Positions 10,465-26,023 are shown, counted from the stretch's first letter. The stretch is DNA of 33,072 bases from Deltaproteobacteria bacterium (GCA_029262315.1 JAJCZP010000096.1:1-33072), one strand, 5' to 3'. Numbers and translations are program-made. The notes: generated from the sequence alone by a model not told the origin.

Positions 10465-10502
10465 AAAAAAAACCCGGACCCCAATTTGTTCAGAGGCCCA
10501 GG
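10465..10502 (-). terminator. Intrinsic terminator of riboswitch expression platform
   Basis: On the minus strand the arms CCTGGGCC (10502-10495) and GGTCCGGG (10480-10473) pair over 8 positions, two of them G-U, and are followed at once by eight T residues (10472-10465). The left arm includes part of the conserved 3' segment of the aptamer (CGCCTGGGC, 10505-10497). Aptamer and terminator therefore cannot form together, so ligand binding should switch the operon on. A competing CCGGG/CCCGG hairpin around the T run (10477-10457) is also possible. Confidence 0.8.
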
Positions 10503-10565
10503 CGTTCGGCTCCTGAAGATCGCACTCCCCCGTGGTGCTCCACGAAAACGCCAGTCGTGCGTCCA
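10496..10565 (-). promoter_or_regulatory. ZMP/ZTP riboswitch (pfl motif) aptamer
   Basis: On the minus strand the leader reads CGCACGACTGGCG (10562-10550), a hairpin CGTGG-agca-CCACG, then GGGGAGTGCG (ending at 10521), a linker, and GCCGAACGCCTGGGC (10511-10497). This matches the known layout of ZTP aptamers as I remember it: stem P1 (here CGCA/TGCG), the internal GACTGGCG strand, an apical hairpin, GGGGAG, and the 3' CGCCTGGGC segment whose CGCC can pair with GGCG as the pseudoknot. The ligand, 5-aminoimidazole-4-carboxamide ribotide or its triphosphate, accumulates when 10-formyltetrahydrofolate is short. It controls the aminotransferase-serA-purA operon, which fits a demand for serine-derived one-carbon units. 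Confidence 0.9.
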
Positions 10566-10585
10566 AGGACTTTCGGAAGGGCCGA

Positions 10586-21276: not shown

Positions 21277-23709
21277 CTATTCTTTGGTGGCAGGGCCCAC
21301 GCGAACCAGCATCGCGCTCCCGACGGGAAGATTCGCAGCCTCCGCGAGGGCCCGCTGCAGGTCGAACAGGACGGGCGCGAGATGCGCCCCAGGCCCACCG
21401 AGCACGACCGAGGCCGCGTGCAGCCGGCCGAGCTGACGCCGCACCTGCATGCAGACGAGCGGCGTCGCCTCCCGCTCGCGATCGACCTCGGGATCCCTCG
21501 GGGACAGGAGCAGACTATTGCTCCGTTCGCGACCGCCGCCGGCACACTCGGTGCGCAAACGCGCGGCGACCGTGGCGACCTGATCGAGACTGCCCTGGTA
21601 TCGAAGCAGCCGATCAGCGAGTACCGGGTGAGCGGCGAGGATCTCGGCCGGAGACAGGCCGGGTGTCGGCGAATCCTCGGGAAGCTGGGGCACGTAGCAC
21701 GCCGCCACGGGACCACCTCCACTCCCGACCGCCGTCGCGGCGTCGGCGGCGTCCCCAATCGCGACCACCGGCAGCGGGAGACCGGACGGCGTCCCCCCGG
21801 AGGTCCCGCCCGCGGGCATACTCCGGATGGCCTTCCGCACGTTCTCGGCATCATCCCCTACCCGAAAATTGTTCGAAATCGACAGGAAGCAGACGTCGCC
21901 CAACGGCAATCCGGACGCCGCCCCCAGTGCAGCGCCCCACCCGCGGGCGACACCCAACGCGTTCTGCGGCAACCCGCCGTAGATGTCGTGACTCCGGGCC
22001 ACCTGGACCGTCTGCAACGCGCCTTCGTGGCAGAACCAGAGATCGAAGACGAGGCACGGTCGATGTTGCGCGGTGGCGGGCAGGTCGACCATCGGGACCC
22101 ATCGCTGGTTGATGCAGACCCGCGCCGGATCAGCGGCGAGCGCCGCGCCCGTGGCCGCGATCTGATCGAAAAAGAAGTGACAGGTGCGATCGCCATACGT
22201 GTAGTCCCCACGCGCACGCACGTCAGGCGCGGCGGCAAGAAGCTCCTGGGCGTAGTGATCGATGTGCTCCTCGCTGGCCGGATACGCGGCCGGTATCGCC
22301 ATCGCGTCCATGGCTGGAATGACGAAGAACGTGCACCAGCCTTCGGCGACGCGTCCCTTCTGCGTCGTGGTAAGGAGGCCGTGTTCCCGGAGATTCTCGA
22401 GCCCCGCGGTCCAGGTCTCCTCGAGTGAGCCGCCCGTGATGACGGTGCCCGCGCTCAGATGATGATCGACGTTCTTCCTGGCATCGGACGCGAGCGGCTG
22501 CCCTTCCTCGAACCGAAGCCCGGTCCGCAATGCGAACTCGGCGCGCCCGACCTGGACGGCGAGATACACCAGATGCTGATCGCGTTCCGGATAGTCGCCC
22601 AGGTAATCCCCCGCGCAGATGGCGGCCAGGAGATCGACAGCAGAGCGCGCTTGGAGCGTCTCGACGTGCGCCCCGTCGGCGTCGTGAAAGTCCGCGGCCA
22701 GTGTCCCCTCTTCGTACGACGGGCGCACTTTGAAGAACCCGTTCGGGTCCAACCGAATTGGAGAATTGCGTCCTTCCTCAGCGGGGTCGGGCAGTGGACC
22801 GTCCGGCACCGCGAGGCCAAGCCGCGCGGCGTCGTCCGGAAACTCGGTGGCGAGGACAGCGTACTCGGCGGTCATGGCCCACGCACTGAGGCGCTCCTCC
22901 CAGCCAGACACACGCTCGACGGCGCCGCGGCGAAGCGCCGTGTGCAGTGCGCGCTGCGCGCGTCCGTCCGGCTTGCCAACGCTGACGACCGGCGGGCCCC
23001 CACTCGCATCCTCGAGCACGAGCGCGGCGCCCGCCCGCCGCACCGTCAGCCGTGGGTTCTCCTGCAATTGCCCCGCCGGCACCTGGAGGATGCGCGGGCG
23101 CCAACGATAGACGTCGATGCTTTCGAGGAAACTCCACGACGGCGCAGCAACCGGCTGGACCCGCTCGGCCAAGGTCTCGGCGACCGCGCCGAACAGGCTC
23201 GGCGGATCGACGGGACCGCGACAGTCGACGATGTCGAGCGAACGCCCCCGGAACACCGCGATGTCATCGTGCGACAGCGTTGCCAGCGCGTCACGCGCGA
23301 AGACTTTCGTCACGCGAGGCTCTGCTCCGTCGCCAGGCAGAACATGCCGCCCCTCGTCGACCCCGTGATGATACAGGCAACGCACACCCTCGAGCGGATA
23401 GAACACCGGAGAATCCTCGCCGCAGAGCACGAGCACGGACACGTACGGATTGGTGATCAGATTCTGCACCACCCGCTCAACGCCATCGCGAAGCGTGGCG
23501 ATCGTCCCGATCACCGCGAGCGCCGCGCTCGGGATCGAGACCGGCAGGTGCTCGAGGATCGTCGCCAATGGCGGATCCGCCTTCCGCTGCCCGGCGATCT
23601 CCAGCTCGGTATGGCCGATCAGGATCGCGACGTTGGCGCGGGGGTCGAAAACGCGGACCTTCTCGTCATCGGGAAAGAAGGGCCACTCGCGCTCGAAATC
23701 AAACGACAC
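21277..23709 (-). CDS. MtrA-like / DUF4346-like / tandem thymidylate-synthase-like fusion protein
   Basis: An 810-residue protein in four parts. (1) Residues ~25-155 resemble subunit A of tetrahydromethanopterin S-methyltransferase (ALAVIGTIATLRDGVERVVQ, NPYVSVLVLCGED, CLYHHGVDEG). (2) Residues ~195-410 end in RDQHLVYLAVQVGRAEFAL, like DUF4346. (3) Residues ~430-630 look like thymidylate synthase: RPCLVFDLWF with the candidate nucleophile Cys552, ARSHD (Arg572, Asp575) and GLPQN (Asn583). The Cys-Arg and Arg-Asn spacings (20 and 11) equal those of E. coli ThyA (Cys146, Arg166, Asn177). The ThyA His207 and Tyr209 positions read Asn and Phe. (4) Residues ~690-810 repeat this fold without Cys, Arg or Asp. 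It is last in an operon with a dCMP deaminase fusion. I infer a dUMP-related methyl or hydroxymethyl transfer; whether it makes dTMP is unknown. Confidence 0.75.
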   Translation of the reverse strand: MSFDFEREWPFFPDDEKVRVFDPRANVAILIGHTELEIAGQRKADPPLATILEHLPVSIPSAALAVIGTIATLRDGVERVVQNLITNPYVSVLVLCGEDSPVFYPLEGVRCLYHHGVDEGRHVLPGDGAEPRVTKVFARDALATLSHDDIAVFRGRSLDIVDCRGPVDPPSLFGAVAETLAERVQPVAAPSWSFLESIDVYRWRPRILQVPAGQLQENPRLTVRRAGAALVLEDASGGPPVVSVGKPDGRAQRALHTALRRGAVERVSGWEERLSAWAMTAEYAVLATEFPDDAARLGLAVPDGPLPDPAEEGRNSPIRLDPNGFFKVRPSYEEGTLAADFHDADGAHVETLQARSAVDLLAAICAGDYLGDYPERDQHLVYLAVQVGRAEFALRTGLRFEEGQPLASDARKNVDHHLSAGTVITGGSLEETWTAGLENLREHGLLTTTQKGRVAEGWCTFFVIPAMDAMAIPAAYPASEEHIDHYAQELLAAAPDVRARGDYTYGDRTCHFFFDQIAATGAALAADPARVCINQRWVPMVDLPATAQHRPCLVFDLWFCHEGALQTVQVARSHDIYGGLPQNALGVARGWGAALGAASGLPLGDVCFLSISNNFRVGDDAENVRKAIRSMPAGGTSGGTPSGLPLPVVAIGDAADAATAVGSGGGPVAACYVPQLPEDSPTPGLSPAEILAAHPVLADRLLRYQGSLDQVATVAARLRTECAGGGRERSNSLLLSPRDPEVDREREATPLVCMQVRRQLGRLHAASVVLGGPGAHLAPVLFDLQRALAEAANLPVGSAMLVRVGPATKE

Positions 23710-23733
23710 CAGGGCCTCGCGCTCGGGTCGCGC

Positions 23734-24354
23734 CTAAGCGGCAGGTGTCCGCGGTCGAAATCCGGTCGCGCTCCGAAAGGCCGTGTTGAAGTCACGATAG
23801 AGCGATCGGTGCGGCTCCAGCCGGTAGTTCTTCTTGACGAGCGTCTCGGAGATGTCGTCGACCTCCTCCACACCCGCCCATCCCTTCGGCGTGGGGTACG
23901 CGTAGTAGGGCGTATCGTCGGGCACGCCGGCGACGTACACGACGTTGATCGGCCGTCCGGCTTTGCGCGCCGAGTAGACGCGGTGCATGCCGTCGTTCAC
24001 GAGCTTGATACACGGGCCGGCCGGCTCACGGGAACATTCGACCACGGGCGGGAGCAGATCCATGCCGTCTTCCGGGCCCTCCGGCGTCCAGAAACGCACG
24101 AAGCCGCGCAATCCGTAGAGATCGACCTCGTGCGCGCGAAGTGCCGCCGCCAACGCCGCGATCTTCTCGAGCTCGCCCCGCTGCACGTAGAGTTGTGCGG
24201 GCTGGAGCGCATCCGCGTCGTAGGACTCGAGAAGCGTCAGGTCGGCACGCGCGTACGGCAAACTGAGCGGTCGGCGATGCAGCGCGACGCGACGCAGCCC
24301 GGCGAAGAGATCCTCCACCCCGAAACGCTCCACGCGTGAGATTTCGATGTTCAC
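23734..24354 (-). CDS. ParB/Srx-fold protein with DGMHR motif (SerK/ParB-like)
   Basis: This 206-residue protein contains VNDGMHRVYSARKAGRPINV (residues 119-138). The DGxHR signature with a following helix is shared by ParB-type CTPase domains and by the ADP-dependent free serine kinases (SerK/SbnI). The sequence YYAYPTPKGW (150-159) after it is also reminiscent of SerK. The C-terminus is rich in Arg and aromatics (KKNYRLEPHRSLYRDFNTAF). There is no helix-turn-helix region of chromosomal ParB, so DNA partitioning is unlikely. GTG 24354 overlaps the HAD gene's stop (GTGA, 24354-24351), fixing the start. It precedes the TS-like fusion by 24 bases. A nucleotide-dependent kinase or binding role in the same pathway is inference. 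Confidence 0.55.
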   Translation of the reverse strand: MNIEISRVERFGVEDLFAGLRRVALHRRPLSLPYARADLTLLESYDADALQPAQLYVQRGELEKIAALAAALRAHEVDLYGLRGFVRFWTPEGPEDGMDLLPPVVECSREPAGPCIKLVNDGMHRVYSARKAGRPINVVYVAGVPDDTPYYAYPTPKGWAGVEEVDDISETLVKKNYRLEPHRSLYRDFNTAFRSATGFRPRTPAA

Positions 24355-25070
24355 GAGGATGCGATACCGCGCGAGGATGCCGTAGACAAGTACGCGCGTG
24401 GCGCCTGAGGTTGGCCGAGCGCCGCGAGCAACAGCTCGCGAACCTCGGCGAGATCGCGAGCGTAGACCGCACCGGGGGGTAGGGTTGTCCGCTCGGAGGC
24501 CGCCGTGGCTCCCGGAACCCAGATCGCGCCCATGCCGAGCTCGAGCGCCGGTACGACGTCCTTGTCGAGACTGTCCCCGACCATGACCGTGAACTCCGGC
24601 GCCACATCGGCCGCGGCGAGCGCCACCTCGTACAACGCGGGATCGGGCTTGGCGATGCCGACTTCGTAGCTGAGATGCCAGGACTCGATGCGCGGTACGA
24701 TCGCCGGACACGCCCGACGAAACCCCGCCGCGTACGGCGCCCAGATGTTCGAGATGACACCGATGTGGGCACCGGCAGCGGCGACCGCGTCAATACACGC
24801 GGTCGCGCCCGGGACCTCCACCGGCTCCCGTTGCTGCGCCTCCCAGACCTCGGTCACGACCGGCTCAATGTCGCGAGCAATCTCGAGCACGGAGCGCAGA
24901 CGCGCCGCGAGGGCCCCGGGCGAGGCAAAGGACTCCCGGAACACGAGCTGGGTGATCGTCCGCCCCTGCTCGCGCGGCAGGCCGAGCGCCTCCGCCAGCC
25001 GCTTCCCAGGGCCAACGGTCGGGCGATGCACGAGGGTATCGCCGATGTCGAAAAAGACGGTACGGGTCAC
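24351..25070 (-). CDS. HAD-superfamily hydrolase
   Basis: This is a 239-residue haloacid-dehalogenase-fold phosphatase. Motif I is VFFDIGDTLVH with nucleophile Asp8 and acid/base Asp11. Motif II is IGVISN, motif III is the Lys in VGIAKPDPALYE, and motif IV is VMVGDSLDKDVVPAL. A helical cap lies between motifs I and II (residues ~18-95). Such enzymes hydrolyse phosphate monoesters, nucleotides included. Here the setting between a dCMP deaminase fusion and a TS-like protein suggests a (deoxy)nucleotide or sugar phosphate as substrate. GTG 25070 overlaps the upstream TGA (GTGA, 25070-25067), and its own stop overlaps the next start in the same way. Confidence 0.88.
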   Translation of the reverse strand: MTRTVFFDIGDTLVHRPTVGPGKRLAEALGLPREQGRTITQLVFRESFASPGALAARLRSVLEIARDIEPVVTEVWEAQQREPVEVPGATACIDAVAAAGAHIGVISNIWAPYAAGFRRACPAIVPRIESWHLSYEVGIAKPDPALYEVALAAADVAPEFTVMVGDSLDKDVVPALELGMGAIWVPGATAASERTTLPPGAVYARDLAEVRELLLAALGQPQAPRAYLSTASSRGIASS

Positions 25071-26023
25071 GCGTCCCCTTCGTGCCACCACACGACATCC
25101 TTCTTGGCGCGCCGCAGAATCTCGACCCCCATCGCGTCGCCGCGCCGGTTCGGATGCCGACAGTATACCCGAGACACGCCGCTATTGATGGCACGCTTGG
25201 CGCACATGATGCACGGCGTGTGCGTCACGAACATCACCTTGTCCTTCTCGATCGCCCCGGCCTTGAGGAGGGCGTTCTCCTCCGCGTGGACGTACCCACT
25301 CCGATCGTGGGGAATGAACTTACGATCGTCGATCCCCGCCGCGCCGCCGTTGTATCCAACGCCCAACACGCGCTCGAGATCAGCCGACACCACGACGCAT
25401 CCAACCTTCTGTGAGCCATCGGTCGAACGCAGTGCCAACGCCTCCGCGAACCGCTGATACGCTTCGGGCAACGTCAAGCGTGGCGGAAGACGCAACGAAC
25501 CGGCACCGGGGCTCGGCCCGCCGGCTGGCGGCCGCCAACGCGGATACTGCACGACGGTCCTACCCGCACGACGCAGGAGCTCGACGCCGTCCAATGAGTG
25601 CGGCCCGCGATTGCGATAGTACACGTGACTGACACCGCTGTTGAGCGCACGCACGGCACACAGGTAGCACGGCGCCTGCGTGACGAAGAGCAGCTTGTCC
25701 TTCTCGACCGCACCGGCGATCAGGAGTGCGTGCTCTTCCGCGTGGAGGTGGCTGCCACCGCGCATCGGATGGGCGGTAGTCATCGCTCCGCCCGAGAAAC
25801 CCGCGCCGAGCACGCGTTCGAGATTGAAGCTCACGACCACACAGCCGGTACGATGGCTGCGCGCCGGCGAGCAGCGTGCCAGAGCCTCGGCAAAGCGCAG
25901 GTAGGACTCGAACAGCGGAATCCGATCCTGCGAACGACCGCGGTTCAGCGGGTGGCTATTGTCCGGCCGCCCATCCTTGTAGCCCCGCGGGTTCTTCTGG
26001 CCGCGAGTGGCGCGCGTCAGCAT
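25067..26023 (-). CDS. Tandem dCMP-deaminase-family fusion protein
   Basis: A 318-residue protein made of two zinc-dependent cytidine/deoxycytidylate deaminase domains. Domain 1 (about 36-160) has HAEEHALL (His94, Glu96) and APCYLC (Cys119, Cys122). Domain 2 (about 185-310) has VHAEENALL (His246, Glu248) and TPCIMC (Cys271, Cys274) plus the nucleotide-loop sequence GYNGGAAG typical of dCMP deaminases. Domain 1 reads GFSGGAMT there, so substrate binding may differ. Both domains keep the zinc ligands and the catalytic Glu. dCMP deaminase makes dUMP, the substrate of thymidylate synthase, which fits the TS-like gene two genes downstream. ATG 26023 is used; GTG 26026 is possible. It follows yajQ by about 15 bases. 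Confidence 0.88.
   Translation of the reverse strand: MLTRATRGQKNPRGYKDGRPDNSHPLNRGRSQDRIPLFESYLRFAEALARCSPARSHRTGCVVVSFNLERVLGAGFSGGAMTTAHPMRGGSHLHAEEHALLIAGAVEKDKLLFVTQAPCYLCAVRALNSGVSHVYYRNRGPHSLDGVELLRRAGRTVVQYPRWRPPAGGPSPGAGSLRLPPRLTLPEAYQRFAEALALRSTDGSQKVGCVVVSADLERVLGVGYNGGAAGIDDRKFIPHDRSGYVHAEENALLKAGAIEKDKVMFVTHTPCIMCAKRAINSGVSRVYCRHPNRRGDAMGVEILRRAKKDVVWWHEGDA

Follow-up and report, generated by a model that had tools for sequence, protein, structure and literature searches.

A conserved four-gene module built around a fused thymidylate synthase-fold protein is the probable source of dTMP in Deltaproteobacteria in which ThyA and ThyX were not found

Four adjacent genes in the genome of a Deltaproteobacteria bacterium (GCA_029262315.1, here designated G000) probably form a module that makes the dTMP of this organism in place of thyA or thyX, an activity that is predicted from the protein sequences and a structure model. 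The genes are located in a 33,072-nt stretch of DNA (JAJCZP010000096.1), referred to here as the window, and encode a tandem dCMP deaminase, a HAD hydrolase, a ParB-CE domain protein, and a fusion of an MtrA-like domain, DUF4346, and a thymidylate synthase (TS) domain. Every cell must make thymidylate or take it up, and to our knowledge only two classes of TS are generally recognized, ThyA and ThyX. Because the fusion is the sole TS candidate in genomes in which ThyA, ThyX, and dihydrofolate reductase (DHFR) were not found, the module is expected to replace thyA and thyX. The confidence expressed here covers the production of dTMP by the module as such; the case in which its redox chemistry is that of ordinary ThyA, considered below, is a sub-case, and the likelihoods given for the two overlap.

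The open reading frame coordinates confirmed an earlier note on this DNA that had described four minus-strand genes with two exact 4-base GTGA overlaps (positions 25070 to 25067, between the start of the HAD gene and the stop of the deaminase gene, and positions 24354 to 24351, between the start of the ParB-CE gene and the stop of the HAD gene) and a spacing of 24 bases between the ParB-CE gene and the fusion gene. The note had called these genes a four-gene operon. The gene set is real, but the locus sits in a longer run of closely spaced genes on the same strand (ftsK-lolA-yajQ-four genes-dksA-glycerate kinase-glpD). With co-directional neighbors this close, the four genes are likely a module within a longer transcription unit.

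Table 1. Genes of the four-gene locus (window coordinates) and domains of the fusion protein (residue numbers)
Feature	Position	Strand	Characteristics or basis
Tandem dCMP deaminase, 319 aa	25067..26026	minus	two zinc-deaminase domains, HAEE and PCxxC in both
HAD hydrolase, 239 aa	24351..25070	minus	PF13242 5.8e-12, PF00702 2.3e-11
ParB-CE domain protein, 206 aa	23734..24354	minus	PF24392 (Parb-CE) 1.9e-38; DGMHR motif
Fusion MtrA-like/DUF4346/TS, 810 aa	21277..23709	minus	Pfam/NCBIfam, alignments, hhalign, AF2 model, PDB matches
MtrA-like domain	~25-136 of fusion		PF04208 9e-8
Possible DUF4346-like fold (weak)	~221-290 of fusion		strand/helix order as in DUF4346
DUF4346	320-401 of fusion		PF14251 9.4e-6
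TS domain	~423-640 of fusion		Y505, C552, R572, D575, N583
Possible degenerate second TS core	~690-805 of fusion		hhalign 8e-5, probability 61%

Elsewhere in the window, a ZTP riboswitch (RF01750, 57.6 bits) is located at positions 10489 to 10568 on the minus strand, directly before SerC-like class V aminotransferase, SerA, and PurA-like genes. This arrangement would fit ordinary folate one-carbon metabolism, with serine and purine synthesis apparently under the control of folate one-carbon status via the riboswitch.

The TS domain of the fusion did not reach the curated cut-off of 24.3 bits for ThyA (PF00303, EC 2.1.1.45; E value, 0.18; 11.4 bits). Its closest named model was TIGR03283, the methanogen-type TS (5.6e-17), and the match covered most of the model length, at a score of 61.9 bits that is far under the cut-off of 174.55. 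A profile of the TS domains matched solved TS structures at 1.6e-15, and the five residues listed for this domain in Table 1 are invariant in the three genomes that have the fusion and correspond in alignments to active-site positions of solved TS, ThyA included. An AF2 model of the fusion was poor overall (mean pLDDT, 49) and usable in just two parts, with pLDDT values of 60 to 89 over much of DUF4346 (residues 320 to 400) and the TS domain (residues 460 to 610). Modelled residues 421 to 631 matched TS-fold structures with a Foldseek E value of 6.5e-6, and VIA-align gave Z scores of 14 to 16 and an rmsd of 3 to 4.8 Å over 175 to 192 residues. The leading matches were the flavin-dependent dCMP hydroxylases 9iqu and 9iqc and classical TS, with CMP hydroxymethylase also among the top structures. 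Thus, the TS fold is present in the modelled domain, one of the points on which the earlier note had let its reading stand or fall. The domain differs from ThyA in that the His-x-Tyr ribose contact is missing throughout the window family and in that the same polypeptide carries at least two further domains. ThyX (PF02511) has the same apparent genomic role as the fusion and likewise occurs without DHFR, but its fold is unrelated. The best reading is that the fusion makes dTMP independently of DHFR and is a divergent protein of the ThyA fold.

The DUF4346 part of the fusion scored 26.8 bits against PF14251 (cut-off, 29.6) and was matched by hhalign at 8e-11 to DUF4346 domains that score above that cut-off, and the MtrA-like domain matched PDB entry 5laa at 2e-7. 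The comparisons that point to a second TS core in the C-terminal 120 residues (hhalign against a wider TS set) and to a second DUF4346 (hhalign, ∼0.007) are suggestive only, and an internal repeat in the fusion was unsupported by BLAST. The tandem deaminase matched PF00383 in two stretches (2.1e-27) and deoxycytidylate deaminases in the PDB (9.5e-13). The zinc motifs that its two halves have in common with dCMP deaminases (HxE, here HAEE, and PCxxC) are invariant across the three genomes with the fusion. The structure model of the ParB-CE protein had a pLDDT of 48. A phage origin of the module was rejected, as phage records contained no matches to the fusion or to the ParB-CE protein.

Searches for thyA and thyX, which the earlier note had proposed as a check, detected neither ThyA nor ThyX (PF02511) in G000 (99.96% complete, 5.9 Mb) or in the two relatives with the fusion (G001 and G003), and a FolA-type DHFR was not found in G000; control genomes were positive in the ThyA, ThyX, DHFR, and thymidine kinase searches. 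Among 58 relatives, the fusion was present in 3 (G000, G001, and G003), ThyA in 13, and ThyX in 40, and no genome had two of these. Exactly one of ThyA and ThyX was present in 53 of the 55 relatives without the fusion, and the association between the fusion and the lack of any standard TS had a Fisher P value of 3.2e-4, which is a guide only because the genomes are related. These absences were called on draft metagenome-assembled genomes (MAGs), and the three close genomes with the fusion are not phylogenetically independent. The sister genus g3 (G002, G004, and G005) has ThyA, together with DHFR. Neither ThyA, ThyX, nor the fusion was found in G006 (100% complete) and G046, although G053, from the same genus as G006, has ThyX; gaps in the assemblies or a different route are possible.

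The two other close genomes with the fusion, the only ones found, are both labelled Deltaproteobacteria and come from groundwater (G001, JACQEO010000053.1) and soil (G003, VBKW01000257.1). Both have all four genes in the same order, with ∼59 to 79% identity (73 to 75% for the ParB-CE protein), between yajQ and dksA. The gene neighborhood that the earlier note had suggested looking for is therefore conserved, and its recurrence in the same order and place in three genomes argues that the module belongs to this lineage and did not arrive in the genomes through faulty binning. A scan of genome contigs with a four-sequence alignment recovered only these two relatives, one Thermoflexales MAG, and two other MAGs.

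A search of the phylum detected, in distant genomes, proteins of ∼480 to 550 amino acids with the domain order MtrA-TS-DUF4346, which matched TIGR03283 at 1e-28 to 1e-45. They share their three domain types with the window fusion but have DUF4346 at the C terminus rather than between the MtrA-like and TS domains, do not have its extra regions between and after the domains, and are just 22 to 27% identical to it in the TS region. In six genomes (G093, G282, G348, G285, G325, and G437) such a protein was the only TS, with no ThyX and no other ThyA. The gene order was dCMP deaminase-(MtrA-TS-DUF4346)-HAD in G282 and G093, where the HAD proteins were 33 to 34% identical to that of the window (5.9e-28 and 3.3e-21), and ParB-CE-dCMP deaminase-(MtrA-TS-DUF4346) in G348, a member of a distant family, in which the ParB-CE homologue was 39% identical (1.8e-18). 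No dCMP deaminase, HAD, or ParB-CE partners accompanied the gene in G285, in G325, or at the Thermoflexales locus. That each partner in the window recurs beside a differently built version of the enzyme is strong evidence for functional linkage. One genome, G272, had ThyX alongside MtrA-TS-DUF4346, but the contig with its fusion was 99.3% identical over 3.8 kb to the Thermoflexales contig (L039, 7985 to 11742; L040, 1 to 3758). The contig was likely mis-binned in one of the two genomes, and this co-occurrence was therefore set aside.

Stand-alone relatives of the TS domain were also detected. The viral contig IMGVR_UViG_3300000727_000007 (L057, 4980 to 5591) encodes a TS-domain-only protein of 203 amino acids with YTYG and RSHD motifs, the gene for which precedes one that resembles an anaerobic ribonucleotide reductase gene. 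Short stand-alone TS-like genes in G162 (L054, 3601 to 4281) and G165 (L055, 4035 to 4802), both without ThyX, are possibly a further case in which bacteria use a TS of methanogen-like type.

In the proposed pathway, the tandem deaminase would convert dCMP to dUMP, the C6 of which would be attacked by Cys552 of the fusion, with N583 selecting uracil. DUF4346 would hold a reduced pterin, in all likelihood methylene-tetrahydrofolate, from which a one-carbon unit would then be added at C5 and reduced to a methyl group to give dTMP. The HAD protein might be a house-cleaning phosphatase that clears unwanted phosphorylated nucleotide or pterin, and the ParB-CE protein might be an accessory protein for nucleotide or phosphate handling or phosphate transfer; both of these assignments are guesses.

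The distribution of DHFR bears on how the one-carbon unit might be reduced. DHFR was detected in all 13 genomes with ThyA but in none of the 40 with ThyX and none of the 3 with the fusion (Fisher P value for DHFR versus ThyA, 3e-13, again a guide only for related genomes). Since genomes with the fusion resemble ThyX genomes in this respect, the pterin probably leaves in the tetrahydro form, or in a dihydro form for which there is another means of reduction. Hydride may come from an external donor bound at the MtrA-like Rossmann domain, in which the cobalt ligand has been lost. A broader proposal, which we put forward tentatively, is that several bacterial lineages have a third thymidylate route, served by their only TS with dCMP deaminase, HAD, and ParB-CE proteins as partners. 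In this route, a ThyA-fold enzyme would use an outside reductant through the domains fused to it, a DUF4346 that binds pterin and an MtrA-like domain without corrinoid, and would return tetrahydrofolate, needing neither DHFR nor the flavin-type ThyX. The open-access literature, to which the search was confined, gave no description of DUF4346, ParB-CE, TIGR03283, or a third TS. Alternatively, and with a likelihood that we would place at roughly one chance in three, the same module could use ordinary ThyA chemistry, differing in the redox step only: methylene-tetrahydrofolate would give both the carbon and the hydride, and dihydrofolate would be recycled by a non-FolA DHFR. The intact Cys/Arg/Asp/Asn set in a TS fold is consistent with this possibility, and non-FolA dihydrofolate reductases are known and have been discussed (PMC1971073). 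However, the strict association of DHFR with ThyA within the same class and its absence with the fusion speak against it, as does the fact that ordinary ThyA works without MtrA-like and DUF4346 domains.

Synthesis of a modified pyrimidine nucleotide, such as 5-hydroxymethyl-dUMP or -dCMP, for DNA modification or defense rather than of dTMP is a very improbable role of the module. The earlier note had raised this possibility, and the dCMP hydroxylases and CMP hydroxymethylase among the top fold matches are in its favor. An Asn-to-Asp change at the uracil-selecting position marks dCMP-acting relatives of TS, and the window protein differs from dCMP hydroxymethylase in having at this position N583, which aligns with the TS Asn. 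Furthermore, no other source of dTMP was found in the three genomes with the fusion, the presence and absence of the fusion mirror those of ThyA and ThyX, and phage records had no match to the two proteins searched. Hypermodification as the main role is thus not supported.

A thymidine auxotrophy that the organisms cover by salvage, with the module serving another purpose, is in our view very improbable. The two members of the class without any known TS (G006 and G046) could be taken to favor this explanation, and they illustrate that absence alone can have other causes. However, the genomes with the fusion are 4.5 to 5.9 Mb in size, and in six genomes the same gap is filled by the same class of protein, MtrA-TS-DUF4346. 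G000 has no PF00265-type thymidine kinase, as the sole match (7e-4) was a PilT-type ATPase, and salvage via thymidine kinase was rejected on this basis.

In MtrA, His84 is the cobalt ligand and Glu54 is its hydrogen-bond partner (PMC4915002). Despite the Rossmann-type homology of the fusion to this corrinoid protein (PF04208; PDB 5laa), the MtrA-like domain is highly improbable as a functional corrinoid carrier giving methyl to dUMP in a methylcobalamin-type TS, because both residues are gone in every TS fusion compared (Phe and Leu in the window family), whereas His84 is kept in the aligned stand-alone MtrA-like proteins of the phylum, and a corrinoid methyl carrier was rejected. Tetrahydromethanopterin is also unlikely as the carrier in the window genome, since Mch (PF02289), the sole tetrahydromethanopterin marker searched, was found in none of the 58 relatives, with positive controls; in this respect too the window TS is unlike the methanogen-type enzyme. 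The unusual one-carbon carrier envisaged in the earlier note is only partly supported: a corrinoid version is not favored; as to a pterin, a pterin-binding domain is present, and Mch was not found. The stand-alone MtrA-like proteins (L014, L025, L028, L030, and L031), some of which have a DUF4346-like C terminus and a Cys-rich N terminus, may be corrinoid proteins; several of the genomes that encode them have ThyX and no TS fusion.

The suggestion in the earlier note of a thymidylate route that replaces thyA and thyX is thus supported by the absence of these genes, the conserved neighborhood, and the TS fold. Genomes of free-living size without ThyA or ThyX, but with a conserved fused-TS operon, point to a third solution to thymidylate synthesis, and the DHFR pattern predicts that its redox chemistry is different. 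With the fused-TS module, the metabolic reconstructions of several uncultured lineages would lose a gap.
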